DNA of 64,000 bases from Blastocatellia bacterium (GCA_025054955.1 JANWZE010000050.1:1-64000), one strand, 5' to 3'. Shown: positions 30,291-62,372, numbered from the stretch's first letter. The notes: generated from the sequence alone by a model not told the origin. Program-made: numbers and translations.

Positions 30291-31079
30291 TCACACTGAT
30301 AACACACTCTGCCGCAGCGCGGGCGGGAGTTTTTTGGTTGCTTCGCGGATGATGCTTCGGTGAGCTCTTGGTTTCCACCGTTTGAGGAAATCAGCCAATT
30401 GATCGGGCGCATGGGAGGCAAGGTCTCGGAGTGTGAATCCCAGTGCCTTTCTCACGATCCATTCAGTGTCTTGCATCAGGTATTGACAGACGCGAAACAC
30501 AATATCAGCGTGACCCTGATTGTGATGACGAAGTCGCCGCAACGAGACGAGCGAGGCCCGTCGTCGCCACAGGTTGTCTGACTGTGCCCACTCAATCAGG
30601 TGTTCAACTTTAGATAGATCAGCCGCCACCATAGGTCCCACGACGCAGACGCACAAGGTGTCGCACAGCGACCAGTCATCAATTTGGTTGAGCCATGAGT
30701 TGGCCAGCTCCCAGATATGATCATCAAACTGTCTTTCAAATCGTCGCAGGATCAGCAGGCTCAGCAGCCGCGATTCAAGATGACCATCTTCCCAGAGTCG
30801 TTGGACGGTGGGCATGACTGAAGACAAACTGAGCGGTCGGCCCTGTGATTTTATGAATTCGCTGGCGACTTCTTTAATGTGAGCGACGGGCACGCCGAGC
30901 ACGGGAAGGTGCGTTTTCAACACGGCGCGATGGTGCTGCGTGTGAGCCGGGTCAGCTTGTTGTTTGAGCCGTTCGATCAGAACCCTGGCCGGATCATCTG
31001 GCGGTGGCTCGGCTGTGTGTTTGGAGTGGGGCGCTGAAGATTTTGCTGATTTGATTAGACGTCTTTTTCGTTTTGGCAT
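30291..31079 (-). CDS. AlkD-like DNA alkylation repair HEAT-repeat protein
   Basis: A 262-residue helical-repeat protein resembling the AlkC/AlkD DNA alkylation repair family. Evidence: a basic N-terminal extension; VLIERLKQQADPAHTQHHRAVLKTHLPVLGVPVAHI; helical repeats around NSWLNQIDDWSLCDTLC (the W/D pair typical of AlkD); NLWRRRASLVSLRRL; and DTEWIVRKALGFTLRDLA. AlkD-type enzymes excise 3- and 7-alkylpurines. The start overlaps the end of the upstream glycosyltransferase gene by 86 bp, an unusually long overlap; a later start would shorten it but would trim only the basic leader. Confidence 0.83.
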   Translation of the reverse strand: MPKRKRRLIKSAKSSAPHSKHTAEPPPDDPARVLIERLKQQADPAHTQHHRAVLKTHLPVLGVPVAHIKEVASEFIKSQGRPLSLSSVMPTVQRLWEDGHLESRLLSLLILRRFERQFDDHIWELANSWLNQIDDWSLCDTLCVCVVGPMVAADLSKVEHLIEWAQSDNLWRRRASLVSLRRLRHHNQGHADIVFRVCQYLMQDTEWIVRKALGFTLRDLASHAPDQLADFLKRWKPRAHRSIIREATKKLPPALRQSVLSV

Positions 31080-32793
31080 GATTGCGAAGGGAAAAGATAC
31101 TTTGATTCCAAGCAGTGGGCAAGCCCTGCTCCTGTTCTAATCTGCGTAACTGTAGCAATCTGACTTTAGCCGTTGGTGTGGGCAATCGCTGGTCCAGATG
31201 AATCTTGTAACTGGGCCAAAGCTCCGCTAGCGCTGTGTCTGTCATGTTGAAGAGCTCGGAGCGATAATCGAGTATGAGCCAGATGCGCGGCAGCGAGCGG
31301 TGAACAGTCAGGTAGTTGGTGGCTGTATCTGCCGCATCGGTATTGATGACAGCGCGCCATATTGACTCGTCCTGCCGAAAATAGTATTGGAGCGTCCGAT
31401 CCATGTAGGCCGGGTCAACCACAATGAGATCGCCCGTTTTGTATTCCCGTCGAATGAGATCAGCAATTGGGCGATAGTCGCCTTCGCGCGTCGGGTTTTG
31501 ATAATAGGTGATCAGTGAAAGACTCATGGCGACGAACAACGCAGCAGTAATCAGCGCCTTGAGCCATCGGTTTCTCAGCGTGACGATGCCAGCAGCAGTC
31601 ATCATGAAAAAGTAAGGGGAGATCATCATCAAATAGCGCGATAAGACCATCTCCCGTTGCCAGGTGAGCATCACCAGCATGACCAGCAGAAGCGGAATCC
31701 CGAACAATCCGAGCAGCTCACGACCGTTTCGTCGAATCTGCCAGAGTCCTTTCAAGGTCACGGCTATCATCAATGACATGCCCAAGCCGGCCGTCATGAG
31801 CCGGTGTTGAAAATAGCAGCGTGCTTCGGCGGAGTCTGGGTATTGGCGGTAATTGGCCAGTGCATGGGCTAGTTCGTGTGGATAGATTGCATATCCCATG
31901 GTCATCTGGAATAACAGGTTCCACACTTGACGCAATCCATCTTCGATGGTCGTTGCCACCCGCCAGTCACTGCTGACGCGGCCAGTCGGTGGATAAGAAA
32001 TGATGAATGCCAGCCACGGCAGGCAAGCCAGTGCAATGATAGCGTTGAGGCGTAACCAACGACGAAGCGTCGTCGCCGGCTCGTCGGCGCGTTGCTTGGC
32101 TCTCAGGTAATGACGCAGGAAGTCTATGTTCACAGCCGCCAAGATGAAGCTGGTGAAATAGTGGGTGTATAAAGCAGCGATGAAAAAAAGGCAGAAGCCA
32201 GTTTGGGAGACGCAGCTTGCCGAAGCCTGCTGTCGAAGTCGGAGGTAGCAGAGAACAGCTCCAAGCGTCAGTGCTGTCGCCATCGTGTACATGCGCACTT
32301 CTTGAGCAAAGTAGACCTGATATGGTGAGAGGGCTAACAACATGGCCGTCAGCAGGGCTGTTCCTGCGGAGAACCAGCGACGGGCGAGCGCAAATGAACC
32401 GAGAATGATCAACAGGCTAAATAGCACGAAGGGTAACCGCAGAACAAACGGGCTTGATCCAAACACGCTCGTCCACGCCTTGAGTAAGAGAAAACTGCCA
32501 GGAGGATGCACGTTGAGCGCGGCGCGGCGCAGCAGCCAATAGGTTGGCAGTTGCGAGTCAGACCAAGTGAGCGTTTCATCTAGCCAGAGATTTTGATAGT
32601 CGAGGTGGTACAAACGCAGGCACAGCGCCAAGCCAAGGATCGTCGCCAACAACCATGTAGCGCGTCCCGGATGACGCACGGCAGGGAATATGCTCAACTG
32701 CTTGATGGATGTTGCCAATGCAGCCCGATGCTCCAAGCATGTGACGTTAATGCTTGGAGCCAATAAGTAGCACGTCGAGCGCGGCCATGTCAA
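30994..32793 (-). CDS. GT39-like membrane glycosyltransferase
   Basis: A 599-residue integral membrane protein of the dolichyl/undecaprenyl-phosphate-sugar:protein or lipid glycosyltransferase type (GT39/ArnT-like). Early LYHLDYQNLWLDETLTW has the acidic DE pair of the first external loop, the expected catalytic site. About 11-12 hydrophobic segments follow, then a periplasmic domain from about residue 440. It would transfer a sugar from a polyprenyl phosphate donor outside the cytoplasmic membrane. It lies last but one in a run of minus-strand genes with a GT4 and two phosphodiesterase-like genes, suggesting glycan assembly. Confidence 0.82.
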   Translation of the reverse strand: MTWPRSTCYLLAPSINVTCLEHRAALATSIKQLSIFPAVRHPGRATWLLATILGLALCLRLYHLDYQNLWLDETLTWSDSQLPTYWLLRRAALNVHPPGSFLLLKAWTSVFGSSPFVLRLPFVLFSLLIILGSFALARRWFSAGTALLTAMLLALSPYQVYFAQEVRMYTMATALTLGAVLCYLRLRQQASASCVSQTGFCLFFIAALYTHYFTSFILAAVNIDFLRHYLRAKQRADEPATTLRRWLRLNAIIALACLPWLAFIISYPPTGRVSSDWRVATTIEDGLRQVWNLLFQMTMGYAIYPHELAHALANYRQYPDSAEARCYFQHRLMTAGLGMSLMIAVTLKGLWQIRRNGRELLGLFGIPLLLVMLVMLTWQREMVLSRYLMMISPYFFMMTAAGIVTLRNRWLKALITAALFVAMSLSLITYYQNPTREGDYRPIADLIRREYKTGDLIVVDPAYMDRTLQYYFRQDESIWRAVINTDAADTATNYLTVHRSLPRIWLILDYRSELFNMTDTALAELWPSYKIHLDQRLPTPTAKVRLLQLRRLEQEQGLPTAWNQSIFSLRNHAKTKKTSNQISKIFSAPLQTHSRATAR

Positions 32794-32883
32794 TTAAGAC
32801 CGGGTCGCTGCCACACTTGCCACGTGATGAGGGACGATGAGGAGCCTCCGGTTCTCGGCCACCATGCAGGCTGGCGATCTACC

Positions 32884-33588
32884 TTATTTTGAGAGTTGTT
32901 CGAGTTTCAGTTGACGCGCGTCAAACGCGCGAGGCCCACTGTAGGTGAGAATCCAGCTAATGCCGTATCGTCGCGCTTCATCCGTGTTCACGTCATCGCG
33001 TGTGATGCGCGCTTGCTCCAGCTCGCGGCGGTGCATGTAAACTTTTCTTGGGTAGAGATAGCTGTTGAAGAAGGCCGCATAACTGATCGTGCCGGGTTGT
33101 TCAAGGATCAAGAGAACAGAAGCGTCTTCGGGAATCTGCTGTCGAAGCTGTTGCAGTTGTGGCATGAGGTCGTGATGCCAGGGCACGAGCTTGATTTCTT
33201 CCTGCCACTGAGCTTCGGTGGCGCTGATCCAGTAAACACCATAAAATACCCAGAACGCGATTGTTGGAATAAAGAGCGCAAAATGCAATTGCAGCAGCCT
33301 TCGCGTCCACTTCGATGCGGAGTTAAAATGCGGTAGAAAGCAGCCCAACCATTTATGTTGAATGAACCACAGACCGCAGAGGACGCCGGCCAAGATCGTC
33401 GCATAGAGGCGAAACTGAGGCAGCGTCGCCGGCAAGCGTTCGGCGGGTAAAGCCATTCCAAGAGCGGATAGCCATGTGAGGTAGGTCGCATCGGGAACAA
33501 ATCTCAGGAGAAGCATGCATCCTGCAAGCATGAGCAGGATGTGAGCAAAGCAAAATCGTATCAACCGGCGTGGTCTGGTTGTGGTCAT
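32884..33588 (-). CDS. hypothetical membrane protein
   Basis: A 234-residue protein with three hydrophobic segments (about residues 11-30, 57-75 and 100-125), then a soluble C-terminal part. The latter (HHDLMPQLQQLRQQIPEDASVLLILEQPG and ISWILTYSGPRAF) resembles the periplasmic tails of GT39-like enzymes, so it may be an accessory or a truncated relative of the neighbouring glycosyltransferase. I chose the ATG at 33588 because the longer frame overlaps the upstream gene. Not otherwise recognised. It lies 11 bp after the GT4 gene. Confidence 0.62.
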   Translation of the reverse strand: MTTTRPRRLIRFCFAHILLMLAGCMLLLRFVPDATYLTWLSALGMALPAERLPATLPQFRLYATILAGVLCGLWFIQHKWLGCFLPHFNSASKWTRRLLQLHFALFIPTIAFWVFYGVYWISATEAQWQEEIKLVPWHHDLMPQLQQLRQQIPEDASVLLILEQPGTISYAAFFNSYLYPRKVYMHRRELEQARITRDDVNTDEARRYGISWILTYSGPRAFDARQLKLEQLSK

Positions 33589-33598
33589 GGTTGTTGCG

Positions 33599-34720
33599 TT
33601 ATTCCTCCAGGAGCTGGGCATAGATGGTGGCTAGCTGCGCGGCGGCTTTTTCCCAGCTAAAGAGTCGGGCCCGCGCGAGGCCTTTCTCGATGAGCGACTG
33701 GCGGAGGCGGCTGTCGGTCAAAACGCGCGACATCTGGCGATGAATGTCGTCAACGTCTTCAGGATTGCAATAAAGCGCGGCGTCACCGGCCACTTCAGGC
33801 AGCGAATAGACGTTGGAAGTAATCACCGGGCAGCCAGAGGCGAAAGCTTCCACGACCGGTAGGCCGAATCCTTCGTGCAGTGAAGGGAAGACTAGCATCG
33901 TCGCGCCGGCATAGAATTTTGGTATTTCGTCAGCAGGCACAAATCCTGTTTGGATGACATACGGCTGCAACCGCTGTTCGCGGATGATTTCATCAACGGC
34001 GCTATATCCAGGTGGCTGGTGACCAACGAGCACAAGCTGATGTGGCCATCCCTCTTGCTTGAGTCGCGCAAATGCCCGGAGTGTGGCCGTGACGTTCTTC
34101 TTCGGTTTAATCGTGGAGACGCTGAGAATATATGGGCCGGTCACCCCGTAAGTGGCCAGCGTTGATTGCCAGTCTACACTGGGGTGGAATTGTTTTCCCA
34201 CGCCATTGTAGACCACGTGAACCTTTTCCGGCGGTACGTCATAGTGAGCAATGATGTCACGCTTTGACGCGTGTGAAACGGTGATGATGGCATCGAACGC
34301 TTGGAGCGCCTGACGGTGACGCAGCAGTTTTAGTGGATTGAACCGATTGACCACCTGCTTGTTCATGCTAGCGCGAGATGTTCCATGTATTGTTACCACA
34401 CGTTTGATGTTGACTCCCCACCAGTCGTAGGGTGTAAACAGGAACGGATAATGCACCAGATGGGCGCCCTGCCGTTTCAGGTAGAGTGCGATCGTCGTTG
34501 AGTACACGTAATGGTTCTGCATCCACCTTGGCAAGAGCAACTCATGAGCTGTGGCTGCTGTAATCAGGTCGGCGCGTTGCGGATGGCGAAGGAGTGTGAG
34601 GTTCTTGACGTGTTGGCTGAGATGTTCAATCAGGGACGTCAGTAGCAGGCCAAAGGTGTGGGTTCGTCCATTGAGCCGATCCAGGGCTAGTACAACCAAT
34701 TTATCGGCGAGGTTACTCAA
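33599..34720 (-). CDS. glycosyltransferase family 4
   Basis: A 373-residue cytoplasmic GT-B glycosyltransferase. The C-terminal domain has YILSVSTIKPKKNVTATLRAF, HLVLVGH-like HQLVLVGHQ, and the donor-binding SLHEGFGLPVVEAFASGCPVI with the EX7E motif. The N-terminal half carries the acceptor-side VTIHGTSRAS. It retains the anomeric configuration and likely adds a sugar to a lipid-linked or protein acceptor. Its ATG lies inside the last codons of the upstream phosphodiesterase gene (8-bp overlap), so the two are translationally coupled. Confidence 0.9.
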   Translation of the reverse strand: MSNLADKLVVLALDRLNGRTHTFGLLLTSLIEHLSQHVKNLTLLRHPQRADLITAATAHELLLPRWMQNHYVYSTTIALYLKRQGAHLVHYPFLFTPYDWWGVNIKRVVTIHGTSRASMNKQVVNRFNPLKLLRHRQALQAFDAIITVSHASKRDIIAHYDVPPEKVHVVYNGVGKQFHPSVDWQSTLATYGVTGPYILSVSTIKPKKNVTATLRAFARLKQEGWPHQLVLVGHQPPGYSAVDEIIREQRLQPYVIQTGFVPADEIPKFYAGATMLVFPSLHEGFGLPVVEAFASGCPVITSNVYSLPEVAGDAALYCNPEDVDDIHRQMSRVLTDSRLRQSLIEKGLARARLFSWEKAAAQLATIYAQLLEE

Positions 34721-36392
34721 GGTATCCCAGTTCTTTCAATCGCTCTCGGATGAGTTTTTCTTCTTCATCGGTATTCCAACCGTATGGTTGGCCACTCATC
34801 GCAGGCGCACGCGCCGACTGGATGTGGACCCGATAGGCTTGAAGATAGTCCGGGTCAATGGCCTGCTCGATAACATGACCATCCATGTCCTCCAGGAGAG
34901 GAACGCCGGCCAGATAGAGAATGGTAGCGGTCACGTCTTCAAGCTTAGGCAGAGGGCCTGATAAGCCATTCGGCGAGATTTGAGCGCCAGGTCGAATAGC
35001 GTTTCCATTCATGATGAGGATGCCTTCGGCGCGGTGTGTTCCTTGATTCTTCTGTCGTGTTTGGCAAATCAGCTCAGCCGATTTTGTGTCCGTGTCAATT
35101 CCGTACTGGTCGTCGAGGTTGAAAATGATGTCTGGCGCGTTTGCTGCATGATGGCCACGGTAGACGCCTTCGCGCACCATGATTTCGGAAATCAGCCGTC
35201 GGCCTGAATGGGGGTCACGCATGGCTGTCAGTTTCTCAATCAGCTCAGCGCGAAACGCATCGTAGGCTGTGCCCGGTTCAATCACGCCGGTGTGATGATC
35301 AGCGGTATTGATCCAGATGCCGCCGATGTAGTCATGCAACTTGACCAGCTTGGCCTTGATGGTGCGTCGTGCCGCATCGCGCAGGCGTGCTTCAGTGCGT
35401 TCCAGCAAGCCTGCCGGTGTGATCGGACCGAGGTATTTGTAGATTCGACGTTTGGTCGGCAACAGCCTTTGCAGAGCGCGTACCATTGCGCTGTTGAGGC
35501 CATTAGAGGCTATTTGGAGTTGAAGCTCTCGGGCCAGTGCTGAGAAATTGAGTCGTTGCTGCGCAGCGGGACCGAACCCATGATCCGACAAGATGATGAT
35601 GTCGTAATCGGCGCCGGCGAGCCTCACGAACTCGTTCAGGTAATGATCCAGTTCCTGATAGATGGTAATCAGCCGGTGCTGCAGCTCTGGAGCGTGATCG
35701 CTTTGGCAGGAAGGGTCCAGATGATGCCAGTAGCGATGTTGAAGTCGGTCGGTCTCAGTGAAAACGACGATGAAACAATCCCACGGCTCACGCTGAAACA
35801 GCTCCAGCGCGGTGCGCGCGCGTTTGCGCAAAATATCTTGCATGCGTTGCAGGAAGTGATCATCAGGCGAAGAGAAGTCTTTTTCCTGCGGGTGCAGATC
35901 AATTTCGTAATGGGTTAGTTCCGCTGCCAATTCCGGTGGGTGAGTGAAGTGGCGGGAACCGGGCGGCGTCAGCATGCCGGTGATCATCACTCCATTGATT
36001 GGTTCGGGTGGATAGGAAATTGGTAAGTTGATGCAGGCGACCCGACGTCCTGCCGCGCCGAGCAGGTCCCACAACTTTGGTTCGGTGATGGAGCGGGCGT
36101 TGACGACGACGCCGGGGACGGCCAGATAGGTTGGCTGACCGCGCCCCAGCGAGTGAGCAGACCAGGGATTAACGTCATAGAATTGGAATACGCCATGTTT
36201 GCCAGGGTTCTTGCCTGTGATGAACGTAGACCAGGCTGGAGCTGAGACAGGTGGCAGCGTTGAGAGTAAAATGCTGGAAAATCCTTCGGCTCGTAGCCGC
36301 GCCAGCGTCGGCATGGCGCCGCGTTGCATGAGCGGGTCCAGCGCAACGAATGACGCGCCGTCCAATCCGATGATCAGAAGTTTCCTGCCCAT
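34713..36392 (-). CDS. alkaline-phosphatase-superfamily phosphodiesterase, paralogue 1
   Basis: A 559-residue type I phosphodiesterase/nucleotide pyrophosphatase-like protein. The first metal Asp is Asp11 (LIIGLDGASF). The nucleophile position is Ser50 in PPVSAPAW before the TGKNPGKHGVF signature. FTETDRLQHRYWH and ILSDHGFG supply further metal ligands. The C-terminus is RLKELGYLE, a tail shared by all five paralogues. No signal peptide is seen, so it may be cytoplasmic or exported by another route. The family hydrolyses phosphodiesters or phosphoglycerol/phosphoethanolamine groups; the substrate is unknown. It overlaps the GT4 gene. Confidence 0.88.
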   Translation of the reverse strand: MGRKLLIIGLDGASFVALDPLMQRGAMPTLARLRAEGFSSILLSTLPPVSAPAWSTFITGKNPGKHGVFQFYDVNPWSAHSLGRGQPTYLAVPGVVVNARSITEPKLWDLLGAAGRRVACINLPISYPPEPINGVMITGMLTPPGSRHFTHPPELAAELTHYEIDLHPQEKDFSSPDDHFLQRMQDILRKRARTALELFQREPWDCFIVVFTETDRLQHRYWHHLDPSCQSDHAPELQHRLITIYQELDHYLNEFVRLAGADYDIIILSDHGFGPAAQQRLNFSALARELQLQIASNGLNSAMVRALQRLLPTKRRIYKYLGPITPAGLLERTEARLRDAARRTIKAKLVKLHDYIGGIWINTADHHTGVIEPGTAYDAFRAELIEKLTAMRDPHSGRRLISEIMVREGVYRGHHAANAPDIIFNLDDQYGIDTDTKSAELICQTRQKNQGTHRAEGILIMNGNAIRPGAQISPNGLSGPLPKLEDVTATILYLAGVPLLEDMDGHVIEQAIDPDYLQAYRVHIQSARAPAMSGQPYGWNTDEEEKLIRERLKELGYLE

Positions 36393-36469: not shown

Positions 36470-36976
36470 CTACAAATCTGTATCCTCGTTCTGACGTCTC
36501 TTGCGCTTGGATTGGCCTTCCAGGCTGACGATCAACCAACGGTCGCCGATTTTTCTGACTCGCACGCTGCGTTCTTTGTTTCTCTTTTTGTTCTTCCATT
36601 TAACGATGGCTTCCGTCTCGCTCACTTTCTCGAAGCCGGGAATGATTTCCAGCGATTCTTCGGCAATTTTCTGACTGAATCGCTGAAATCGCTTCTGGCT
36701 GAGGATTTCCGGTGGAACCGCATCCGAGTAGGCGCTGCGATAAAGCTCATAGTTTTTTGCTTTGGCAGCTTGAAACACCACCTGCAATGGGCCTTCGGGC
36801 GTAGACAGGTCTGCGGTCACTGATGCTGCCGGTGTCGGCGTTGTGGGTGATGTTGGCGAGGGTGACGGCGTCTGACTCGGCGCCGATGACTGTGGCTGGC
36901 CACCGCAGGCAAGGCCGCCGCTGATCAGAGCCGTCATCAGCACTGTGCTCGTCCACAAGCGTTGCATCTCTGTCAC
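36470..36976 (-). CDS. putative lipoprotein
   Basis: A 168-residue exported lipoprotein. A signal peptide with lipobox GGLACGG (Cys24) is followed by a Ser/Pro/Thr-rich linker (about 27-52) and a globular domain from about 58 (LSTPEGPLQVVFQAAKAKNYELYRSAYS ... EAIVKWKNKKRNKERSVRVRKIGDRWLIV). That domain has the pattern of NTF2-like/DUF4878-type lipoproteins. The start is GTG at 36976, 8 nt after GGAGGT. It stands between two phosphodiesterase paralogues in the same operon, so an envelope role connected with their substrate is inferred. Confidence 0.75.
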   Translation of the reverse strand: MTEMQRLWTSTVLMTALISGGLACGGQPQSSAPSQTPSPSPTSPTTPTPAASVTADLSTPEGPLQVVFQAAKAKNYELYRSAYSDAVPPEILSQKRFQRFSQKIAEESLEIIPGFEKVSETEAIVKWKNKKRNKERSVRVRKIGDRWLIVSLEGQSKRKRRQNEDTDL

Positions 36977-36991: not shown

Positions 36992-38677
36992 TTACATGTA
37001 TCCCAAATCTTTCAATCGCGCTTCAAGGCTCATCTGCTCCTGGTCTGAGTACTCAAAGGTAGCCTGAGCGACGCTTTCCAACGGGGTCGTTTCATAAGCG
37101 ATTGGAGCTTGCTCAATGTACTGTTGGGTCAGCGCCGATGTCAACACCTTGCCGTCCATGTACTCTTGGACGGGCAATCCCATCAGATGCAGAATGGTGG
37201 GAGCAATATCAATGATCTCCGCTCCTTGGATTTCTATGCCTGGCTGCACGTGTTGGCCATAAAGCATGAGGATGCCATCTAGGTGATGATTGCCTGAACG
37301 TTCGATGTTGCCTTTGGCGGCGTAGGTGACGATCTCTTCGCCCAGTCCTTCATTGATGAAGTAGCCTGGCCTGGGCAGCATGACGATGTCCGGGGCGTCA
37401 TCCAGGTATGGTCCGGCGTAGACCTCTTCTCGCTTGTACACGGCCTGGATGACCGGCTGGCCGGTCTCGCTATCGGTCAATTGACGCAGTCCGTCAATCA
37501 GCTCATCGCGCAACGCCTCGTACTCCGCGCCGGGCCGGACAATGCCTAATGGTTCGCGACCTTTGACGTTCAGATACAAAGCCAATCCGCCAGCCGAAGG
37601 AAAATAGGCGCGCGTCCGACTCCAATCCACGTTATCTTCGATATTTTTGTAGGACGGCCGACTGCGCGGCACCTGGTTTTTCCAGGCTTCGGGAAAGAGT
37701 TTCGGCAACCAGGACAGGCGCAGAGACTCCAGGCGCTTGACCAATCGCTCGCGTTGAAATCCGATTTTAAACAGCGCGCGCTTGATGGCTAGGTTTTTGC
37801 GTCGGTACAACACCAGGTAGCCGTGTCGAATGAGCCAGTTGGTGATGAAGACGTTCTTCTCGGTCATCATGAAGCCGTGATCAGAAAGGATCACGAGATG
37901 GGTTGCTTGGTCTAATCGTTGCAGAATCTGCCCAAGCAGCGCGTCCAGTTCGCGGTAGCAGTCGAGGATGCAGTGTTCAAACCGGTTGGGGCCAGGATAG
38001 TAGCGATGCCTCGGATCCATGAATTTCCAGAACATGTGCTTGATGAGATCAGGGGTGTGAAACATGACAAAGAACAAGTCCCACGGTTTATGATCCATCA
38101 AGTAAAGCGTCTCTTGTCCGTGAATCCGCGTCACCTGCATAGACTCTTCAAACGCTTCGGCCAGGTGACCTGAACGGTTGTAGTAGGTGTCGGCGTTAAC
38201 ACGGTAATTTTCGATCACGCTGTGAAGCTCATCGCGCAGGTCTGGCGGGTGCGTGTAGTCGGTTGCTTCTGCCGGCGTCATCATGCCGGCGACCATCAGG
38301 CCATTGAACCGGTCCACGGGATAAGTGAGCGGCAGGTGCAGGATGATGGATCGCCGCCCGTAGGCCTGGAGGATTTCCCAAAGCTTTGGTGCTTTGATGT
38401 CTCGGCTGCTGTAGACGAGTCGCCGGTAATTCTTTCGCATGGGCTTAAAGAAGCCGTAGATATTATGCTTGCCGGGGTTGACGCCGGTGATGGACGAAGT
38501 CCAGCCGGGCGGCGTCAGCGGCGGCAACGTGCTTTTGAGAATGCCATGCGCGCCGGCATTGAGGACTCGTTTGAAGTTGGGCAGCTTGCCTTCTGCCGCC
38601 CACGGCTTGAGCAGTGTGAAGGTGGAACCATCCAGTCCAAGAACGAACACGCGCTGGCGATCTGATTTGATGGTCAT
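36992..38677 (-). CDS. alkaline-phosphatase-superfamily phosphodiesterase, paralogue 2
   Basis: A 561-residue paralogue of the gene at 34713. Asp16 lies in LGLDGSTF. The nucleophile position is Thr55 (PPLTPPGW), the only Thr among the five paralogues. It is followed by TGVNPGKHNIYGF, then FHTPDLIKHMFW and LSDHGFMMTE. It ends RLKDLGYM. Thr is the usual nucleophile of NPP-type enzymes, so this copy may be closest to a classical phosphodiesterase. It lies 15 bp upstream of the lipoprotein gene and is probably the first gene of that operon. Confidence 0.88.
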   Translation of the reverse strand: MTIKSDRQRVFVLGLDGSTFTLLKPWAAEGKLPNFKRVLNAGAHGILKSTLPPLTPPGWTSSITGVNPGKHNIYGFFKPMRKNYRRLVYSSRDIKAPKLWEILQAYGRRSIILHLPLTYPVDRFNGLMVAGMMTPAEATDYTHPPDLRDELHSVIENYRVNADTYYNRSGHLAEAFEESMQVTRIHGQETLYLMDHKPWDLFFVMFHTPDLIKHMFWKFMDPRHRYYPGPNRFEHCILDCYRELDALLGQILQRLDQATHLVILSDHGFMMTEKNVFITNWLIRHGYLVLYRRKNLAIKRALFKIGFQRERLVKRLESLRLSWLPKLFPEAWKNQVPRSRPSYKNIEDNVDWSRTRAYFPSAGGLALYLNVKGREPLGIVRPGAEYEALRDELIDGLRQLTDSETGQPVIQAVYKREEVYAGPYLDDAPDIVMLPRPGYFINEGLGEEIVTYAAKGNIERSGNHHLDGILMLYGQHVQPGIEIQGAEIIDIAPTILHLMGLPVQEYMDGKVLTSALTQQYIEQAPIAYETTPLESVAQATFEYSDQEQMSLEARLKDLGYM

Positions 38678-43634: not shown

Positions 43635-43767
43635 GTAACGTGACAAAAGTTCGGGGTGTTTTTGGAGTGTTGCGACGTGTCGCAGCTTTGGTCAGAAAGT
43701 GGTGACACGTCACCGCACTCCAAAACGTCCCGTCCCTCCGAAATGTCCCAGAACTTTTGTCCACCTC
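43635..43767 (+). repeat. MITE-like palindromic element, copy D
   Basis: Begins GTAACGTGACAAAAGTTC and ends GAACTTTTGTCCACCTCCG, with internal hairpins GCGACGTGTCGC and GTGACACGTCAC. Very close to copies A and C over the first 100 bases. It lies directly after the half copy of a second palindrome family. Confidence 0.88.
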
Positions 43768-46097: not shown

Positions 46098-46209
46098 CAC
46101 TCATCAAGGTCCATCATCTTCCATTGGTCTATTGTTGTGATCGGTATCGGCTTGCCGCACGTTAGCCTATTTCTCAAGCCATCCAGGCCGGTTCCGAGAT
46201 TCAGGATTG

Positions 46210-53131: not shown

Positions 53132-53324
53132 ACTCGATCTCCTCGGGCTTCGCGGTTAGTTCTTCCTCATCCACCTCATTGTTGCCCGCACACGAGCATA
53201 CCCGATTTACCATCTCTGTCAAGCAAGCGCCAGAATGCCGGCTCTGATTTCAGCTTGACTTAGAACCCGGGCTCGTTTTATGCTGCCGGCTCCTGGCCAT
53301 AAAGATTCATTTGGGGAGGGCTAC

Positions 53325-55017: not shown

Positions 55018-56601
55018 CTATTGACGGCTCACGTCCATATCGGGCGTTGAAGTGACAGGCTGCCTGTGAGCGAGTGCTTTGAGCCGAAGCTGTGACTGGC
55101 GGGCCAGCTCTTTATCTTCCTCGTCCAGCCCTAGCAACCAGAGCATTCCGCCATACGCAACAAGGTAGCCCAACCCCAGCGCCAGCAGCGCGAGATATTT
55201 GTTCGCCGGCAAAAATGGATGCAGCGCCAGAGCCACACCGATAGCGAGCGCGCCGGCGGCCAGCACTTTCAAGTACCCTCGCTGCACCGGGTGCAGGTTC
55301 ATGTCGAAATAGGCAATGGAGGCGGCCAGGATGTTCGACACAAAAACGGAACCGGTAAATCCCCATGCGGCGCCGATCAGACCAAACTGTGGCACAAGCC
55401 AGATGTTCAATCCCAGCGTGACCAACCCACCTATAATGCGAATGACCAAAGAAACCTTGGGGCGCCCGGCCATGATCAGCGCCGTTTCTGACGGCCCGAC
55501 AGCATAACTGAAACAGACAGCCGCAGCCACCACACTCAACGCCGTAGCCGCCGGCATGAATTGTTCGCCTAACACAGGAATGACCACGCCGGGGAAGACA
55601 ATCAACAGGGCGAAAATCGGAATGGAGAGCAGCATCGTCCATTTGGTGATCGTCTGAAATGCGTGTCGCAGTTCATCCAATCTGCCTTCGGCGTGAAGCC
55701 GAGGCACATGCGGCGAGTAGGCTTTCTCAAACGCATCGGCAATCAGCGTATTGAGCGTGGCCATGCGTAGCGTGAACATGTACAGCGTGATCTCCAGCGG
55801 ATTGCGGAACATGCCGAGTAACAATACATCGGCGCGCCGAGTCGCCTTGCTGATGAAGTTGCGTAGCACCAGCGGCCAACAGTAGTTGATGAACTCGCGA
55901 AACTGGAATATGGGCTTGACACCTTTCAGTCGGCTGCGCAGCGTGGCTGTGTAGTAGTAGTAAGCAGCGACGGTTGCTGCAACCGTCGAGATGACATAGG
56001 CCAGGATCAAGCCTTCCAGTTTGAAGCCAGCCAGAAATAGCAGTAGCGCCATCCCGACTTTCGTTCCCGGCTCGATGACGCTGCGCACGTAGGTTTGTGC
56101 CTTGAAGTGTTTGAGTCCCACCAGTGTACGTACCCAGATGCCCGACAGGGCCGAGAGCGGCACGGTCAGCGCCAACCACTGAAGGACCACCACAAGGCGT
56201 GCCTTGTTAGCGAAGAAGCGCTCAACCAGCGGCTGGGCGGCCAGAAACAGACCGAGGCCCAACAGCACGCCGAGCGAGACACTCAACACGCCGGCCGTCC
56301 AGATGATGCCTTTCAATTTCGGCGTCTCTTTTTTGTAGAGCGCAACATAGCGAATCAGGCCGTTGCCGAATCCCAAATTGAATATCAAGGAACCAAGCTG
56401 GCAGATGGTCAGTCCCAGGAGAAACAGACCGAAGACGCGCAGACCATACAGTTTGGCAATCCCGACGGTGAAGGCGAAGCCAAACAGCTTATCGAGAATG
56501 TTACCAAGAAAAACAATGCCGCTATCTCGTCCGATTCGAGCGAGCCGGCTTCGATTGGTTTTTGCTTCAGCGTCTGTGACCACGGCCAGGGCAATGCTCA
56601 C
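55018..56601 (-). CDS. Wzx-type polysaccharide/lipid flippase (MVF/MOP superfamily)
   Basis: A 527-residue integral membrane protein with about 14 hydrophobic segments, typical of MOP-superfamily oligosaccharide-lipid flippases. The opening GIVFLGNILDKLFGFAFTVGIAKLYG and the second half RPKVSLVIRIIGGLVTLGLNIWLVPQFGLIGAAWGFTGS are characteristic. It would move lipid-linked sugars across the cytoplasmic membrane. Placed between the cytochrome/PHM-like gene and phosphodiesterase paralogue 5 on the minus strand, it supports a glycan or glycolipid export function for the region. No Wzy/Wzz gene is visible. Confidence 0.88.
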   Translation of the reverse strand: MSIALAVVTDAEAKTNRSRLARIGRDSGIVFLGNILDKLFGFAFTVGIAKLYGLRVFGLFLLGLTICQLGSLIFNLGFGNGLIRYVALYKKETPKLKGIIWTAGVLSVSLGVLLGLGLFLAAQPLVERFFANKARLVVVLQWLALTVPLSALSGIWVRTLVGLKHFKAQTYVRSVIEPGTKVGMALLLFLAGFKLEGLILAYVISTVAATVAAYYYYTATLRSRLKGVKPIFQFREFINYCWPLVLRNFISKATRRADVLLLGMFRNPLEITLYMFTLRMATLNTLIADAFEKAYSPHVPRLHAEGRLDELRHAFQTITKWTMLLSIPIFALLIVFPGVVIPVLGEQFMPAATALSVVAAAVCFSYAVGPSETALIMAGRPKVSLVIRIIGGLVTLGLNIWLVPQFGLIGAAWGFTGSVFVSNILAASIAYFDMNLHPVQRGYLKVLAAGALAIGVALALHPFLPANKYLALLALGLGYLVAYGGMLWLLGLDEEDKELARQSQLRLKALAHRQPVTSTPDMDVSRQ

Positions 56602-56681: not shown

Positions 56682-58340
56682 TCACTCGAAGTATCCGAGT
56701 TCCCGCAGTCGCTGCTCGATCAGCTCGTCGTCATGCTGAGCAAACGTGATGGCGTCGGCTTCGCCCGCCGGTTCTCCATACGTGATCGGATGCTGTGTGA
56801 TGAATGCCGGCTCAAACATGTCGGTCAGCACTTGTCCATCCATATCTTGTGGGACCGGCAAGCCCATCGCATACAGGATGGTTGGCGCCATATCAATGAG
56901 TCGTGCGCCGCTGAGCCACGCGCCGCGTCGCACGCCTGGCCCAACGGCCAATAAGATGCCCTTGCTGTCGTGATCGCCGGGCAATCGTTTGACCGCATAA
57001 AGCTCGTTCAATCGGTGCGGATGTAGCGCGCTGCTAGTGGAAAAATTCAATCGCGGATCAGCATTCAATGTGGCTTCCTCCAGGATGATGTCTGCCGCCT
57101 GAGGCAGGTAAGGCCCGTGATAGACGTCTTCACGTCGGTGCACGCCCGTGTAAATCGGCGCGCCCGTGAGCGGGTCGCGCACGGCGAGCAGCTTGCGAAT
57201 GATCTGTTCGCGCAGTGATTCATACTCACTGGGGTTGACAATGCCGGCAGGTTCGCGTCCGCGTAGATTGAGGCGAATTCCTAGTCCATTCAGATAGAAT
57301 GCCCGCGTCCGCGCCCAGTCAATGATTTTCAAGCGCCAACTGAGGCCTTTGATTTTGCGGGTGGTCTGGTCTGTAGGAGTCAATGAGAGCGCGCTGCTGA
57401 ACCAACGAGCTAACCCGTACACACGTGACTGCCGTCGCACATAGCGAATGACCTGTTGAATCGGCGACAACTTAGCGCCGCGCACCAGCGCTAACCAATC
57501 TTGCTGCCACAGCCAGTGGTTGATCAGAAACCGGCGATAGAATCCATTGGCGCCGTGATCGGAGACGATGAACAACATTGTTTGGTCATCCAGCAGTTCC
57601 AGTTGCGCCCGCAGGATGTCATCCAGGTGTGTGTACATGTCGCCGAGCAAGTGACCGAACTGTCGCGCCGAGGCCTCATCACGCAACGGATGATTGGGCA
57701 TGACATCATCCATCACCCAGTGATGAACGCGGTCAGGCGCCGTGAACACACCGACCATCAGGTCCGGCCTGACCTTCTGTTGAACGTAGCGAATTGCTTG
57801 CCAGCGCATCTCGATGTATTCGGCGAGGTGCTCGACGAACCACTGCTTTTTCACCTCCCGATGACGGCGCACCGGGGGCATCTCGATTTCGTACCCGGGG
57901 CAGGCTGTGAGCAGTTCGGCAGCGAACGCTGGAGGAAACGTAGCCCCGCGCAGGCTCGGCGCATCCATGCCGGCGACCAGCACGCCGTTGACGGGGCGCG
58001 GTGGGTAGGTATAAGGCATATTGACGACGGCAACGCGCTTGCCGGCCTCGCTGACCAGTTCCCATAAGGTGCGCGCGCGAACAGAACCGCCATTATTGAG
58101 CGTGACTTTATAATCGCCTGGCACGAGTGAAAAGAATCCGAAGACGCCTGTCTTGCCGGGATTCTTGCCAGTCATGAAAGCGCTCCAGCCAGCAGCACTG
58201 TTGGGCGGCAACGTCGAGTGCAACGTACCGCGCGCGCCCCGCCGCATGAGAGCAGCCAGTGTCGGTAATCGTCCTTGTGCAACCAGCGGGTCAATGAGAC
58301 GAAATGTCGCGCCGTCCAGACCGATGACAATGACTTTCAC
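56682..58340 (-). CDS. alkaline-phosphatase-superfamily phosphodiesterase, paralogue 5
   Basis: A 552-residue paralogue starting at GTG 58340 (read as MKVIVIGLDGATF, Asp9), which matches the start of the other copies; an ATG at 58418 would add a 26-residue unrelated leader. Ser48 in PPNSAAGW is at the nucleophile position, followed by TGKNPGKTGVFGFF. FTAPDRVHHWVMDD and VSDHGANGFYRRF are further metal motifs. It ends RLRELGYFE. It is divergently transcribed from the acyl carrier protein gene, with about 170 bp between, and may share control with the fatty-acid cassette. Confidence 0.87.
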   Translation of the reverse strand: MKVIVIGLDGATFRLIDPLVAQGRLPTLAALMRRGARGTLHSTLPPNSAAGWSAFMTGKNPGKTGVFGFFSLVPGDYKVTLNNGGSVRARTLWELVSEAGKRVAVVNMPYTYPPRPVNGVLVAGMDAPSLRGATFPPAFAAELLTACPGYEIEMPPVRRHREVKKQWFVEHLAEYIEMRWQAIRYVQQKVRPDLMVGVFTAPDRVHHWVMDDVMPNHPLRDEASARQFGHLLGDMYTHLDDILRAQLELLDDQTMLFIVSDHGANGFYRRFLINHWLWQQDWLALVRGAKLSPIQQVIRYVRRQSRVYGLARWFSSALSLTPTDQTTRKIKGLSWRLKIIDWARTRAFYLNGLGIRLNLRGREPAGIVNPSEYESLREQIIRKLLAVRDPLTGAPIYTGVHRREDVYHGPYLPQAADIILEEATLNADPRLNFSTSSALHPHRLNELYAVKRLPGDHDSKGILLAVGPGVRRGAWLSGARLIDMAPTILYAMGLPVPQDMDGQVLTDMFEPAFITQHPITYGEPAGEADAITFAQHDDELIEQRLRELGYFE

Positions 58341-58513
58341 TGTGACCTTGAGCGAGCGTGATCGAGATTCGCCTGTTAATCGAAGCCAGATTAAACTGTG
58401 GCCGTTTGAATCTGTCAAGCTTGGTTGACAGCGGCCAATGAGCTGACAATAATAACGCCGCCAAGAGAGCGAGAAATTGAACGTGGTAGTGGCAACATAA
58501 GGAAGGTAGCAGT

Positions 58514-58774
58514 ATGAGTGACGTATTGACGCGATTCAGCCGAATGGTCGCCGAGCTGAAGGGAATTGATCCGAGTTCGATCAGCGCCGAATCGCGGTTG
58601 GTCGAAGATTTGGGGGCGGATTCGATTGATTTGGTGGAATTGATGCTTGATGCCGAACGCGAGTTTGGCATTGACATTGGCAAGCAGCAGGCACAATCGC
58701 TGCACACGATCGGCGCCATTGTCGAGTACATCGAAGCTGCCTTGGCGAAACAGGCCGGTTCACCAAGCACATAG
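58514..58774 (+). CDS. acyl carrier protein
   Basis: An 86-residue acyl carrier protein. The phosphopantetheine attachment Ser37 lies in EDLGADSIDLVELML, and the three-helix length is normal. It would carry acyl chains as thioesters for the two KAS III enzymes encoded directly downstream. AAGGAAGGTAGCAGT precedes the ATG. It begins a plus-strand run of five genes (58514-62372). A dedicated ACP next to KAS III enzymes, rather than next to fabF/fabG, suggests a specialised acyl pathway and not the main fatty acid synthase. Confidence 0.95.
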   Translation: MSDVLTRFSRMVAELKGIDPSSISAESRLVEDLGADSIDLVELMLDAEREFGIDIGKQQAQSLHTIGAIVEYIEAALAKQAGSPST

Positions 58775-58782: not shown

Positions 58783-59778
58783 ATGAAGCTATTGACGGTC
58801 GGCATTACGGGTCTTGGCGCGTGCGTGCCCGACAGGGTATTGACCAATGCTGACCTTGAGGCAATGGTTGACACGACGGACGAATGGATTCGCACGCGCA
58901 CCGGCATCCGTGAGCGGCGGATTTGCACGGAAGCTGAAGCCACCTCTGATCTGGCGCTGAAAGCGGCGCAGCAAGCCTTGGCCTCAGCCGGCGTCAAGCC
59001 GGAAGAACTCGACCTGATCGTTCATGCAACGATGACACCGGATCGGTTGTGGCCTTCAACTGGCTCAACCGTGCAAGGCCGATTGGGCGCCGTGAACGCC
59101 GGCGCGTTTGATGTGAATGCGGCCTGTTCCGGTTTCATTTATGCACTGGCCGTTGGCGCGCAGATGGTGCGGACAGGACTCTATCGCAAAGTGCTCGTCA
59201 TTGGCGCCGATGTCGTCACCAAATTCCTAGACTACACCGACCGGCAGATTTGTGTGCTGTTTGGCGATGGCGCCGGCGCTGTGTTGCTGGAGCCTGTGCC
59301 TGAACAAGACGAAGGCCTCATCTCATTCTTTCTGGGCAGCGACGGCACGCGCAGCCAGGTGATGTACATCCCGGCTGGCGGCAGCCGGATTCCACCGAGT
59401 CATCATGCGCTGGATGAAAAACTCAACTTTCCAGTGATGGACGGCTTCGAGACGTTTCAGTTTGCCACGTGGGCGATGATGGACTCCATTCAAAAAGCGT
59501 TGGCTCACTCGCCCTACCAGATTCAGGACGTGAATCTGATCGTGCCGCATCAAGCCAACATTCGGATCATCCAAACGGCAGCGCGATGGCTCAGCGTGCC
59601 GATGGAGAAATTTTCGGTGACGATTGATCGTTATGGCAATACGGTGGCTGCATCCATTCCGCTCAGTTTGTATGATGAGGTCCGGGCAGGACGGCTGCAG
59701 CGGGGGGATTTGGTGGCGTTAACGTCGTTTGGCGCAGGCCTGACCTGGGCCAGTGCGCTGCTGCGCTGGACGATATAG
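58783..59778 (+). CDS. fabH: beta-ketoacyl-ACP synthase III, paralogue 1
   Basis: A 331-residue KAS III. The catalytic triad is visible: Cys115 (NAACSGFIYAL), His256 (VPHQANIRI) and Asn286 (RYGNTVAAS). The DGAGAVLLE and C-terminal LVALTSFGAGLTWASALLRW motifs are standard. It condenses an acyl-CoA starter with malonyl-ACP, and homologues also make other ketides or esters. It starts 8 bases after the ACP stop. The next gene is a close paralogue. The sequence TGGACGATATAGCA is repeated across the stop codon, a small tandem duplication. Confidence 0.93.
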   Translation: MKLLTVGITGLGACVPDRVLTNADLEAMVDTTDEWIRTRTGIRERRICTEAEATSDLALKAAQQALASAGVKPEELDLIVHATMTPDRLWPSTGSTVQGRLGAVNAGAFDVNAACSGFIYALAVGAQMVRTGLYRKVLVIGADVVTKFLDYTDRQICVLFGDGAGAVLLEPVPEQDEGLISFFLGSDGTRSQVMYIPAGGSRIPPSHHALDEKLNFPVMDGFETFQFATWAMMDSIQKALAHSPYQIQDVNLIVPHQANIRIIQTAARWLSVPMEKFSVTIDRYGNTVAASIPLSLYDEVRAGRLQRGDLVALTSFGAGLTWASALLRWTI

Positions 59779-59821: not shown

Positions 59822-60814
59822 ATGGAAGTGCGAACAGTGGGCATTACAGGTATTGGAGCTTATGTCCCGGAGAAGGTCGTCACTAATGCCGATCTAGAGC
59901 CGCTCCTCCAGACAACGGATGCGTGGATTCGCCAGCGCATGGGGGTGATGGAGCGACGGGTATGCACCGAAGAGCAAGCCACGTCTGACTTGGCCGTGCC
60001 TGCCGCGCAAATGGCTTTGGAGGCGGCTGGCTTGAAACCAGTAGACGTGGAGATGATCATTAATGCCACTATGACCCCAGATCGTTTATGGCCCTCGGCG
60101 GGATCAACGATTCAAGGGAGATTGGGAGCTGTCAACGCGGCGGCCTGTGATATCAATGCAGCCTGCTCCGGCTTTGTTTATGCGCTGGCAGTGGGAACGC
60201 AAATGGTGCGCGCAGGGCTCTATCGCAAGGTGTTGGTCATCGGGGCTGATGCTATCTCCAAGTTTCTCAGAGGCAAGAACCCGAATGGCGCGCTATTTGG
60301 GGATGGAGCCGGCGCCGTCGTATTGGAGCCGATCCGGGCCGAGGAAGAAGGAATTATTGATTTTGTCTTGCACAGCGATGGCAGCCGAGGTGACATTCTC
60401 CAGTTACCGGCTGGTGGCAGCCGGCTACCCTCCAGCCACCGCACGTTGGATGAGGGCTTGAACAGCCCAGTGATGGATGGCTATGACACCTTCGAATTCG
60501 CTGCGACTGCTGTCATGGACTCAATTGAAAAAGTGCTGGCCAAAACGTCATACACAATCAATGATGTGGACCTGATCGTTCCTCACCAAGCCAACCAGCG
60601 ATTGTTTCGTCCCGTGGCCAAGTGGCTGGGCGTGCCAGTAGAGAAGTTCTTTGTCAACATTGAGCGGTATGGTAATACTGTGGCGGGGTCCGTGCCCATC
60701 GCGTTATATGAAGCGGTTCAGCAAGGGCGATTGAAACGAGGTGATTTGGTGGTATTGTCGGCCTTCGGCGCTGGTCTGACGTGGGCGGGTGCAGCGGTGC
60801 GGTGGACTATGTGA
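59822..60814 (+). CDS. fabH: beta-ketoacyl-ACP synthase III, paralogue 2
   Basis: A 330-residue KAS III, clearly a duplicate of the preceding gene (shared NATMTPDRLWPS.GST.QGRLGAVNA core). Cys115, His255 and Asn285 are all retained, so both copies should be active. The two differ most around residues 146-160 (KFLDYTDRQICV versus KFLRGKNPNGA), near the acyl-binding/dimer region, which may alter starter choice. The gene lies 43 bp after paralogue 1 in the same run. Confidence 0.93.
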   Translation: MEVRTVGITGIGAYVPEKVVTNADLEPLLQTTDAWIRQRMGVMERRVCTEEQATSDLAVPAAQMALEAAGLKPVDVEMIINATMTPDRLWPSAGSTIQGRLGAVNAAACDINAACSGFVYALAVGTQMVRAGLYRKVLVIGADAISKFLRGKNPNGALFGDGAGAVVLEPIRAEEEGIIDFVLHSDGSRGDILQLPAGGSRLPSSHRTLDEGLNSPVMDGYDTFEFAATAVMDSIEKVLAKTSYTINDVDLIVPHQANQRLFRPVAKWLGVPVEKFFVNIERYGNTVAGSVPIALYEAVQQGRLKRGDLVVLSAFGAGLTWAGAAVRWTM

Positions 60815-60903
60815 TTGCCAATGGCGAAGTGTTGGCTCAGTGGCTCAGTTCAGTGGTGGGAACCCCTTGACGCTGCGAGTTCAAATCTTCAACTCATGAG
60901 ATC

Positions 60904-61644
60904 ATGAAACAGTTCATTCACAAAACAGCGCGTTTGGGCGTCAGTCCCACACTTGGTTGTGGCGTGGTCATTGAAGAGAACGTAGAAATTGGCGATCACG
61001 TTACCATCGGCCATAACGCGGTCATTCAAGCTGGGACGCACATCGGCGCAGGCACCATCATCGAGGCTGGGGCGATCATTGGTCGTCAGCCTCGACCGAG
61101 TGCCATGACCAGTCGCCCGGTCTCTTTGCAGCCTGGCGCTGTCATCGGCCAGAACTGTCGCATCGGGGCCAACGCCGTAGTGTACGCCGGGGTTCAAATG
61201 GAAGAAGGGGTACTCATAGGCGATCTAGCCTACGTGCGTGAACACACGCGCTTGGGCCGCTATGTCACAATGGGAGCGTTTACCTGGTGCGGTTACATCA
61301 CAGTCGGCGATTATACGAAGATTCAAGGAGCGTGTGGTTTGGTGGGCGTTTACGAGGATCGTGTCTTCCTCGGTCCTCTGGTGGTGGCATTGGATGATCC
61401 AACGATGGACCGACACCCGCCAACGGAATTCGTCGGGCCTCATGTCAAGCGCGGGGCGCGCATTGGTGGCGGGGCAGTATTGTTTCCAGGCATCACGGTG
61501 GGTGTGAACGCGGTGGTAGCTGCTGGCGCAGTGGTGATGCGAGATGTGCCAGACCGGAAACTGGTCGCCGGCAATCCGGCCAAGGTGATTATGGATGTGC
61601 CGGAAGATCAGCATATCCCAGAGGCATCAGAGACGGTGGAATGA
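60904..61644 (+). CDS. left-handed beta-helix (hexapeptide) acyltransferase
   Basis: A 246-residue protein with many imperfect hexapeptide repeats ([LIV]-G-x4), forming a left-handed beta-helix: [27 protein letters not shown] near the start, and [26 protein letters not shown], the typical end of acetyl/acyl-transferases. It could use acyl-ACP, as LpxA/LpxD do, or acetyl-CoA on a sugar. With the ACP and KAS III genes directly upstream, an acyl-ACP donor is plausible. Its stop overlaps the start of the GT2 gene (ATGA). Confidence 0.88.
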
Positions 61645-62372
61645 AAATGGAGATTCAGGCTCATCGTATTCTGGCCATCTCGGCGGTGCGGGACGAAGAG
61701 AAAAGCATTGGTCGCGTGATTGAGCAGTTGAAGCAGATTGGCCTGTCTGACATTGCCATCGTTGATGACGGTTCGACCGATGGCACCAGTGAGATTCTTC
61801 AGGCACATGGTATCACCGTGTTGCGCAGCGGAGCCCGCGAAGGCTTAGGCATGGCCGCGCGCAGCTTGTTCCAGTATGCTCGTCATCATCAGTTTGAAGT
61901 CGTCGTCACGTTGGCCGGCAACGGTAAAGACGATCCGATGCAAATTCCGCGCCTGTTGCAGCCACTGTTGGAGGAAGGGTATGACTTGGTCCAGGGTTCG
62001 CGGTATCTGCCCGGCGGCAGCTACACGAACATGCCGTTTTATCGGTGGCTGGGCACGCGGCTGATTTATCCGCTCTTGTTTTTTCTTGTTACGGGTCGCT
62101 GGATGACTGATGCAACCAACGGCTTCCGCGCCTTTCGCATGAGCTTGTTCGATGATCCACGCATCAACCTTCATCAGGACTGGCTATCACAATATGAGAT
62201 GGAACCGTACATTCTCTACAAAGCGGTGACTCTTGGGTACAAGGTCAAAGAGGTGCCTGTCAGTAAAACCTATCCAAAGCGTGGCGAAGAGTACACCAAG
62301 ATGAAACCGATCACCGGCTGGTGGAGCATCCTACGACCACTCGTCTTGCTGGGCCTGAGAATCAAGCGTTAG
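61641..62372 (+). CDS. glycosyltransferase family 2 (DPM1-like)
   Basis: A 243-residue GT-A glycosyltransferase. [16 protein letters not shown] and the later [18 protein letters not shown] (in place of the usual DGD) and [27 protein letters not shown] resemble polyprenyl-phosphate mannose/glucose synthases. It is a soluble or peripheral enzyme that would make a polyprenyl-phosphate sugar. Such a product would be the donor for GT39-like enzymes, one of which is encoded at 30994. The ATG at 61641 overlaps the previous stop, so it is coupled to the acyltransferase gene. Confidence 0.88.

Follow-up and report, generated by a model that had tools for sequence, protein, structure and literature searches.

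Why would a single bacterial locus carry five full-length phosphodiesterase (PDE) genes among glycosyltransferases (GTs), an acyltransferase homologue and a flippase, and what might such a locus produce? The question is raised by a stretch of 64,000 nucleotides (hereafter the window; G000:C50:1-64000) from the 4.7-Mb Blastocatellia (Acidobacteriota) genome of an uncultured acidobacterium, in which an original prediction, made from the sequence alone, had seen an island for envelope lipids or glycans. The island, about 30 kb long, is a real, evolutionarily maintained unit of one Blastocatellia family, and its product is probably an acylated lipid-linked sugar destined for the cell surface. Each of the genes named in that prediction was found where it had been placed, and the five full-length PDEs and one PDE remnant among them were confirmed by matches to PF01663 and other profiles and by tblastn.

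Gene content and conservation of the island

The genes of the island and of its immediate surroundings are as follows.

30994-32793 (-): GT39/PMT_2-like GT-C glycosyltransferase (PF13231, E=1e-10; start uncertain), a neighbour outside the family core
32884-33621 (-): TM245, membrane protein, first gene of the conserved block (44-47% in G001:C336 and G002:C20); no match in Pfam or NCBIfam searches
33599-34720 (-): GT4 glycosyltransferase (PF00534, E=1e-31; 64% orthologue)
34713-36392 (-): PDE1, PF01663 NPP-like phosphodiesterase (E=3e-38; orthologues 61-62%)
36470-36976 (-): LP168, predicted small lipoprotein with a LACG lipobox read from the translation (44-46% orthologue in place)
36992-38677 (-): PDE2, PF01663 phosphodiesterase (E=9e-42; orthologues 68-70%)
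39329-40978 (-): PDE3, PF01663 phosphodiesterase (E=1e-42)
43828-45246 (-): PDE4s, short PF01663 phosphodiesterase (E=4e-34; start probably 45246)
45243-46100 (-): LpxL/PatA-like acyltransferase homologue (PF03279, E=4e-13)
46471-48087 (-): rSAM1, B12-binding radical S-adenosylmethionine (SAM) protein (48% identity with rSAM2)
48105-49697 (-): rSAM2, B12-binding radical SAM protein (PF02310 and PF04055)
49992-52280 (-): FG-GAP/ASPIC-UnbV protein (PF13517, E=7e-46; 65-66% in G002 and G001)
52434-52640 (-): PDE remnant, the N-terminal ~62-64 codons of a PDE5/PDE3-like gene (tblastn 53% over 64 amino acids, E=1e-14)
55018-56601 (-): Wzx-type flippase (PF13440, E=7e-20; orthologues 55-57%)
56682-58418 (-): PDE5, PF01663 phosphodiesterase, sister of PDE3 (E=4e-37; start uncertain)
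58514-58774 (+): acyl carrier protein (ACP; TIGR00517 above cut-off; 69% orthologue), opening the divergent right-hand block
58783-59778 (+): beta-ketoacyl-ACP synthase III (KAS III, FabH) copy a (Cys/His/Asn catalytic motifs; 75% orthologue)
59822-60814 (+): KAS III (FabH) copy b (~82% to the G002 piece, 78% to G001)
60904-61644 (+): QdtC-like left-handed beta-helix (hexapeptide) sugar N-acyltransferase (QdtC 3fs8, phmmer E=2e-26; orthologues 70-71%)
61641-62372 (+): GT2, DPM1-like polyprenyl/dolichyl-phosphate hexose synthase (PF00535, E=2e-17; 75% orthologue)
63165-64000 (+), continuing beyond the window end: second FG-GAP/ASPIC protein (L053:3166-5460; 48% to the G002:C20 orthologue), the rightmost conserved gene

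Several of these genes are tightly coupled: GT4 and PDE1 overlap by 8 bp, the hexapeptide gene and GT2 by 4 bp, and the LpxL-like gene and PDE4s by 4 bp, provided that PDE4s starts at 45246, a start which agrees with the proteins of relatives. The two gene blocks diverge from a single 95-bp gap between PDE5 and ACP.

The island was compared with two related genomes. G002 belongs to another genus of the same family as the window genome and carries the island on contig C20 (JALSQX010000020.1, Blastocatellia bacterium), while in G001 (Acidobacteria bacterium J050, RFHM01) the same pieces are spread over three short contigs (C446, C336 and C186). The order on G002:C20 is TM245, GT4, PDE1, LP168, PDE2, PDE3, PDE4s, the LpxL-like gene, an extra PDE2 copy, Wzx and PDE5, followed by ASPIC, ACP, KAS IIIa, KAS IIIb, the hexapeptide gene, GT2 and the second ASPIC gene. 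Sixteen genes, with identities of 43-82%, are collinear with those of the window, and collinearity of this extent in another genus argues that the island is not a chance assembly. From TM245 to the second ASPIC gene the relatives keep the same genes, order and orientation as the window; they differ from it in having an extra PDE2-like copy, in lacking the radical SAM pair, in carrying the GT39 gene elsewhere and in placing the first ASPIC gene differently. The left flank of 30 kb in the window has no counterpart beside the G002 island, apart from one paralogous amidohydrolase. Since the gene order is kept and the left flank is not, the island behaves as a unit, and simple background synteny was rejected on the same ground. 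The original prediction had named random positions in related genomes as the outcome that would speak against a pathway; instead, the order is collinear in G002 and in the pieces of G001, and its conservation across genera supports one locus with one probable pathway.

Not every gene of the region belongs to this unit. The GT39 gene, which had been counted as an island member, has its orthologues (52-53%) off the island in both relatives, on G002:C83 and G001:C19. Among 146 further Blastocatellia genomes none had a relative of rSAM2 at E<=1e-60. These two observations place the GT39 gene and the radical SAM pair outside the family core; the radical SAM genes, originally listed with the rest, are specific to the window lineage. 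PDE4s was found at E<=1e-70 in three of 147 Blastocatellia genomes, all belonging to the family of the window genome. Both FG-GAP/ASPIC-UnbV proteins, the one within the island and the one at its right end, are conserved with it in the relatives.

The divergent arrangement raises the possibility that two unrelated transcription blocks simply lie side by side, a glycan block on the minus strand and a fatty-acyl block (ACP, KAS III, KAS III, hexapeptide, GT2) on the plus strand. The opposite strands leaving the 95-bp gap fit such a picture, as does the lack of linkage between the acyl block and PDEs outside the family. However, the two blocks are adjacent and in order on G002:C20, the part ASPIC-ACP-KASIII-KASIII-HEX-GT2-ASPIC is kept in G001, and the QdtC-like acyltransferase and the DPM1-like GT2 are themselves glycan enzymes, so that we consider an accidental neighbourhood improbable.

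The phosphodiesterases

The five intact PDEs match PF01663 with 119-147 bits (curated cut-off 23 bits). They belong to a larger set, as genome searches, on which all genome-wide statements here are based, revealed 13 PDE genes (15 matched stretches) on five contigs. In an alignment of 171 relatives the metal ligands D12, D204, H208, D259, H260 and H452 are kept in 97-100% of the sequences, and position 51, the nucleophile position, is occupied by Ser or Thr with a single exception. The two-metal site and the Ser/Thr nucleophile are present in the window copies, with the last His of PDE4s off by one residue in some alignments. In PDE4s the SDHG motif and the last metal-ligand His are some 20 residues apart, whereas in PDE3 the distance is about 190.

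The AlphaFold2 model of PDE3 (predicted local distance difference test score, pLDDT, 90.9; predicted TM-score 0.92) gave NPP1, XacNPP, NPP3 and ENPP6 as best Foldseek matches (E~1e-16), and phosphonoacetate hydrolase also matched; the model of PDE4s (pLDDT 82.2) likewise matches NPPs. The PDEs thus have the fold, the two-metal ligands and the Ser/Thr nucleophile position in common with NPP/ENPP and phosphonoacetate hydrolase, but they are only 11-17% identical to these enzymes, have a larger insert and lack a signal peptide. Moreover, a conserved active-site residue of NPPs proper, the Asn after HGI in NPP1 and phosphonoacetate hydrolase (PhnA), aligns to Phe in 91% of the 171 PDEs, which sets the family apart from NPP proper.

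Where in the cell would these enzymes act? In PDE1, PDE2 and PDE3 the first beta strand of the fold opens the protein, and neither a signal peptide nor a transmembrane segment was seen in any of the five PDEs as judged from the sequences, no dedicated predictor having been run. Because no export signal is visible, we take the five PDEs to be cytosolic. Phosphoethanolamine or phosphoglycerol transfer of the EptA or OpgB kind takes place on exported domains. The membrane anchor with an exported catalytic domain that is typical of EptA, OpgB and LtaS is lacking in the window PDEs, and soluble NPP-fold PDEs of this kind make a periplasmic EptA/OpgB-like chemistry unlikely. The proposal that the PDEs add or remove phosphoglycerol- or phosphoethanolamine-like groups is therefore doubtful, as the PF01663/NPP fold is not of the EptA/LtaS type and neither signal peptide nor anchor is visible.

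The phylogenetic tree places PDE1, PDE2, PDE3/5 and PDE4s in separate lineages of old origin, each with orthologues throughout the family, and the nearest relatives of PDE1, PDE3/5 and PDE4s belong to other phyla; PDE4s falls into a clade with PDEs of Myxococcota (locus L074) and Thermodesulfobacteriota (L110) with a support of 95. Such old, separate lineages, some with relatives in other phyla, suggest distinct substrates rather than a dosage effect. A recent tandem amplification was rejected on the basis of these old lineages, the only duplicates within the family being PDE3/PDE5 and PDE2/PDE2'. A literature search on COG3379 or PF01663 in connection with glycans retrieved only the paper on the ebo cluster (PMC5133447), whose EboF represents a separate PF01663 lineage (PMC5133447). 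Like the window PDEs, EboF belongs to PF01663, is encoded in a small gene cluster and has no assigned substrate; its neighbours differ.

Other enzymes of the island

The LpxL-like protein scores 49.8 bits with PF03279 (cut-off 22.3 bits), and its profile matches both PatA and LpxM, PatA at least as well as LpxL/LpxM. At the place of the HX4(D/E) motif the alignment shows HYGRFW, with the His kept and Trp in place of the acid; the acid is kept in one of ten module relatives of the protein. The KAS III pair scores 376 and 341 bits with the FabH model TIGR00747 (cut-off 292), and the Cys/His/Asn motifs were read for copy a. The genome has five FabH copies, two of them in the island, and the other three led us to reject the pair as the sole housekeeping FabH. 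For GT4 the nearest solved chain is an MshA-type enzyme, and GT2 matches the dolichyl-phosphate mannose synthase structure 5mlz (E=5e-10). By sequence similarity, the nearest relative of the hexapeptide protein, a putative amino-sugar acyltransferase, is the dTDP-amino-sugar N-acetyltransferase QdtC.

Taken with the PDEs, these enzymes recall the synthesis of phosphatidylinositol mannosides (PIM) or of glycosylphosphatidylinositol (GPI): in a bacterial analogue GT4 would correspond to PimA/PIG-A, the LpxL-like protein to PatA, GT2 to DPM1 and the GT39-like protein to a GT-C mannosyltransferase, while the PF01663 enzymes would transfer phospho-alcohols like PIG-N/O/G. The good match to PatA, the MshA-type GT4, the GT2 nearest to dolichyl-phosphate mannose synthase, the assignment of the GT39-like protein to PMT_2 and that of the PDEs to PF01663 all agree with this idea, and PIG-N, PIG-O and PIG-G are also members of PF01663. 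Unlike these, however, the window PDEs are soluble, with neither signal peptide nor membrane part; in addition, GT39 lies outside the island of the relatives and the PatA-like acid is missing. A PIM- or GPI-like pathway is thus unlikely.

Both radical SAM genes encode a B12-binding domain (PF02310) next to PF04055, with the CX3CX2C cysteines C219, C223 and C226 invariant; compared with HpnJ, HpnR, BchE and other named equivalogs, they stay below the NCBIfam cut-offs (best 156 bits versus 481).

Phosphodiesterase loci in other phyla

A contig scan with PDE3 and PDE5 as queries yielded 77 PDE loci in many phyla. Across these phyla, GT4, Wzx, Wzy, GT9 and radical SAM genes are commoner next to PDEs than among genes at least five positions away. 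Among 111 genes adjoining PDEs we counted GT4 12 times, radical SAM and LPG_synthase_TM 8 times each, Wzx-like 7 times, Wzy_C 6 times and GT9 5 times, whereas among 111 genes at least five away GT4 and Wzx are not in the 25 commonest families and radical SAM occurs 4 times; these tallies describe the 80 best PDE matches and not a random sample. The coupling of a GT4 to a PDE, which had been taken as support for one pathway, accordingly recurs in the relatives and also as a general bias of PDE neighbours.

Five loci contain a PDE, an LpxL-like and a radical SAM gene together. Their hosts are Planctomycetota/Kuenenia (L058, L059), Schekmanbacteria (L071), Myxococcota (L074) and an unclassified bacterium (L057). 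The co-occurrence of LpxL-like and radical SAM genes among PDE loci (5/5 versus 9/70) gave a Fisher p=1e-4, a value in which the near-duplicate clusters L058 and L059 are both counted. In these module loci the three genes adjoin as in the window, and Wzx is present in four of the five. In L074 the LpxL-like gene overlaps a relative of PDE4s, with the gene order of the window, so that the acyltransferase-PDE coupling, which had likewise been noted, recurs in another phylum; this relative of PDE4s has an N-terminal membrane domain. The claim that the island has no recognised counterpart therefore does not stand, given the family-level island in G002 and G001 and the PDE/LpxL-like/B12-radical-SAM module (with Wzx/Wzy) in other phyla. 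In the latter, radical SAM genes of the same kind as those of the window stand beside PDE and LpxL-like genes.

In a reverse approach, the LpxL-like profile (A7, which includes a Kuenenia sequence) was the starting point for 58 genomes of Kuenenia's class, and 11 LpxL-positive genomes were checked. A strong module-type LpxL was found in six genomes; four of them carry a full-length PDE, at a distance of 1.5-7.5 kb in each case, and these four are all the carriers of such a PDE among the 11. The lower-scoring LpxL genes are unlinked to PDEs. The radical SAM profile A10 was built from the module loci, and the high ranks of genome G147 with it reflect conservation of the cluster and are no independent test, which probably also applies to its relatives G176 and G158.

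The module loci add Wzy_C, chain-length regulators or GT9, and L059 also a Wza-like exporter, by which they can be recognised as polysaccharide clusters; no KAS III, ACP or QdtC-like genes were seen in the five. In contrast, no Wzy_C, Wzz or Poly_export gene was found among the predicted genes of the window, where Wzx stands without the polymerase, chain-length regulator and exporter of a full Wzx/Wzy cluster.

Could the radical SAM enzymes instead act on acyl chains, in a pathway for ether or membrane-spanning membrane lipids? They do score with the HpnJ, BchE and 'ladder_B12' models, and Acidobacteria have been reported as makers of unusual lipids (PMC11868695). Nevertheless, all NCBIfam scores are far under the cut-offs, the relatives' islands lack the radical SAM pair, and the loci of other phyla are polysaccharide clusters with Wzy and a chain-length regulator, which renders a membrane-lipid pathway very improbable. 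A literature search on ladderanes and Kuenenia yielded nothing.

The breadth of the PDE neighbourhoods also allows the PDEs to be viewed as housekeeping or quality-control hydrolases which remove nucleotide sugars or dead-end lipid pyrophosphates, cluster with any glycan locus and define no pathway step. Many different glycan gene sets adjoin PDEs across phyla, and the genome of the window has 13 copies on five contigs, both of which agree with this view. On the other hand, separate PDE lineages keep orthologous order within the family and have fixed partners (GT4-PDE1 and LpxL-PDE4s), and we regard a pure housekeeping role as rather unlikely.

A short PDE subfamily ('DGxPY') adjoins an APS_kinase gene (L079:13187-13822 and L079:13836-15197; APS_kinase E=1e-62). 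By appearance similar pairs exist in L083, L116 and L122, and APS_kinase was found in 4 of the 111 PDE neighbours, so that a link of this subfamily to sulfation is possible. L122 (candidate division TA06, LJUI01000053.1) carries six PDE genes in 16 kb, which equals the highest count among the contigs analysed.

Proposed function of the island

We propose, with a probability of roughly 0.6, that the island makes an acylated lipid-linked glycan in a Wzx-dependent manner, with phospho-intermediates at the inner leaflet as substrates of the PDEs. The likenesses of the hexapeptide, GT2, GT4, LpxL-like and KAS III proteins fit an acylated sugar on a lipid carrier that is flipped by Wzx. ACP, the two KAS III and the QdtC-like N-acyltransferase would provide an acylated amino sugar, which GT2 and GT4 may assemble at the inner leaflet, with a polyprenyl or glycerolipid as carrier. 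A single lipid-linked intermediate might be the target of both the LpxL/PatA-like protein and the PDE4s coupled to it. The remaining PDEs, soluble and with a two-metal NPP fold, would use their Ser/Thr nucleophile to hydrolyse, or less likely to transfer, phosphodiester or pyrophosphate groups, with nucleotide-sugar or lipid-phosphate intermediates as candidate targets. Wzx would then flip the product. In the window lineage the two B12-radical-SAM enzymes have been added, which probably methylate or otherwise modify the product. The absence of Wzy and chain-length genes from the window suggests a short product and not a polymer. Gene content, collinearity, the intact metal-binding and nucleophile residues and the predicted NPP fold of the PDEs, and the recurrence across phyla are results of the analysis; the substrates, the order of steps and the product are what we infer from them.

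Several findings weigh against this proposal. Wzy, Wza and a chain-length regulator are missing from the window, in contrast to its relatives in other phyla. KAS III, hexapeptide and GT2 genes join PDEs in this family only, and GT2 orthologues stand elsewhere in the class without PDEs, for which reason the GT2 block was rejected as a class-wide PDE partner. What the ASPIC and cytochrome-like genes of the block might contribute to glycan synthesis is not obvious. In the LpxL-like protein the acidic residue of HX4(D/E) is missing, so that acyl transfer is putative. Finally, the substrates given to the PDEs in the scheme are putative assignments.

A bolder version of the proposal, which we consider unlikely, is that soluble NPP-like (COG3379-type) PDEs, LpxL/PatA-like proteins and B12-radical-SAM enzymes form an undescribed cross-phylum module that tailors lipid-linked glycans before flipping, in which PDE lineages would be phosphotransferases placing phosphodiester groups on the cytosolic side, as topologically reversed GPI phosphoethanolamine transferases. 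The reaction class is already known; the PDE expansion and the combination of PDE, LpxL-like and radical SAM genes appear to be undescribed.

In our reading cytosolic NPP-type chemistry replaces the periplasmic phospho-alcohol transfer, and the main interest lies in the substrates of the PDE family. This uncharacterised family of phosphate-cleaving enzymes occurs in many bacterial phyla and some archaeal contigs, has 13 copies in this genome and is a substrate orphan. Its steady glycan-gene neighbourhood and the fixed pairs GT4-PDE1 and LpxL-PDE4s turn the annotation 'alkaline phosphatase family protein' into a testable role in envelope glycans. Since the module is present in anammox Kuenenia, which is available as an enrichment, its product could be sought there.

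Insertions and neighbouring features

The region from 41.0 to 43.8 kb is an insertion with dispersed repeats that is present in the window and not in the islands of the relatives. A repeat of about 135 bp, with copies 84-93% alike at 43636-43766, 263-394, 10708-10838 and 20029-20181 and further copies in L043, L046 and L048, has imperfect terminal inverted repeats (CTAAGTA..GACAAAAGTTC / GAACTTTTGTC..TACTTAG) and looks like a miniature inverted-repeat transposable element. A second repeat has copies at about 43.2-43.4 kb and 62.5-62.7 kb.

Between PDE2 and PDE3 lies an open reading frame (38705-39292, minus strand) that is not found in the relatives. Its start resembles an AF2212-like antitoxin without significance (E=0.08) and its end appears PIN-like by eye; possibly it is a decayed toxin-antitoxin insertion. 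At 53280-54761 (plus strand) a 493-amino-acid protein with weak PSCyt1 similarity below the cut-off is inserted on the opposite strand, and the G002 island showed no counterpart of it. Left of the island, at 15452-19970 (plus strand), three amidohydrolase genes form a tandem in which they overlap or nearly overlap.

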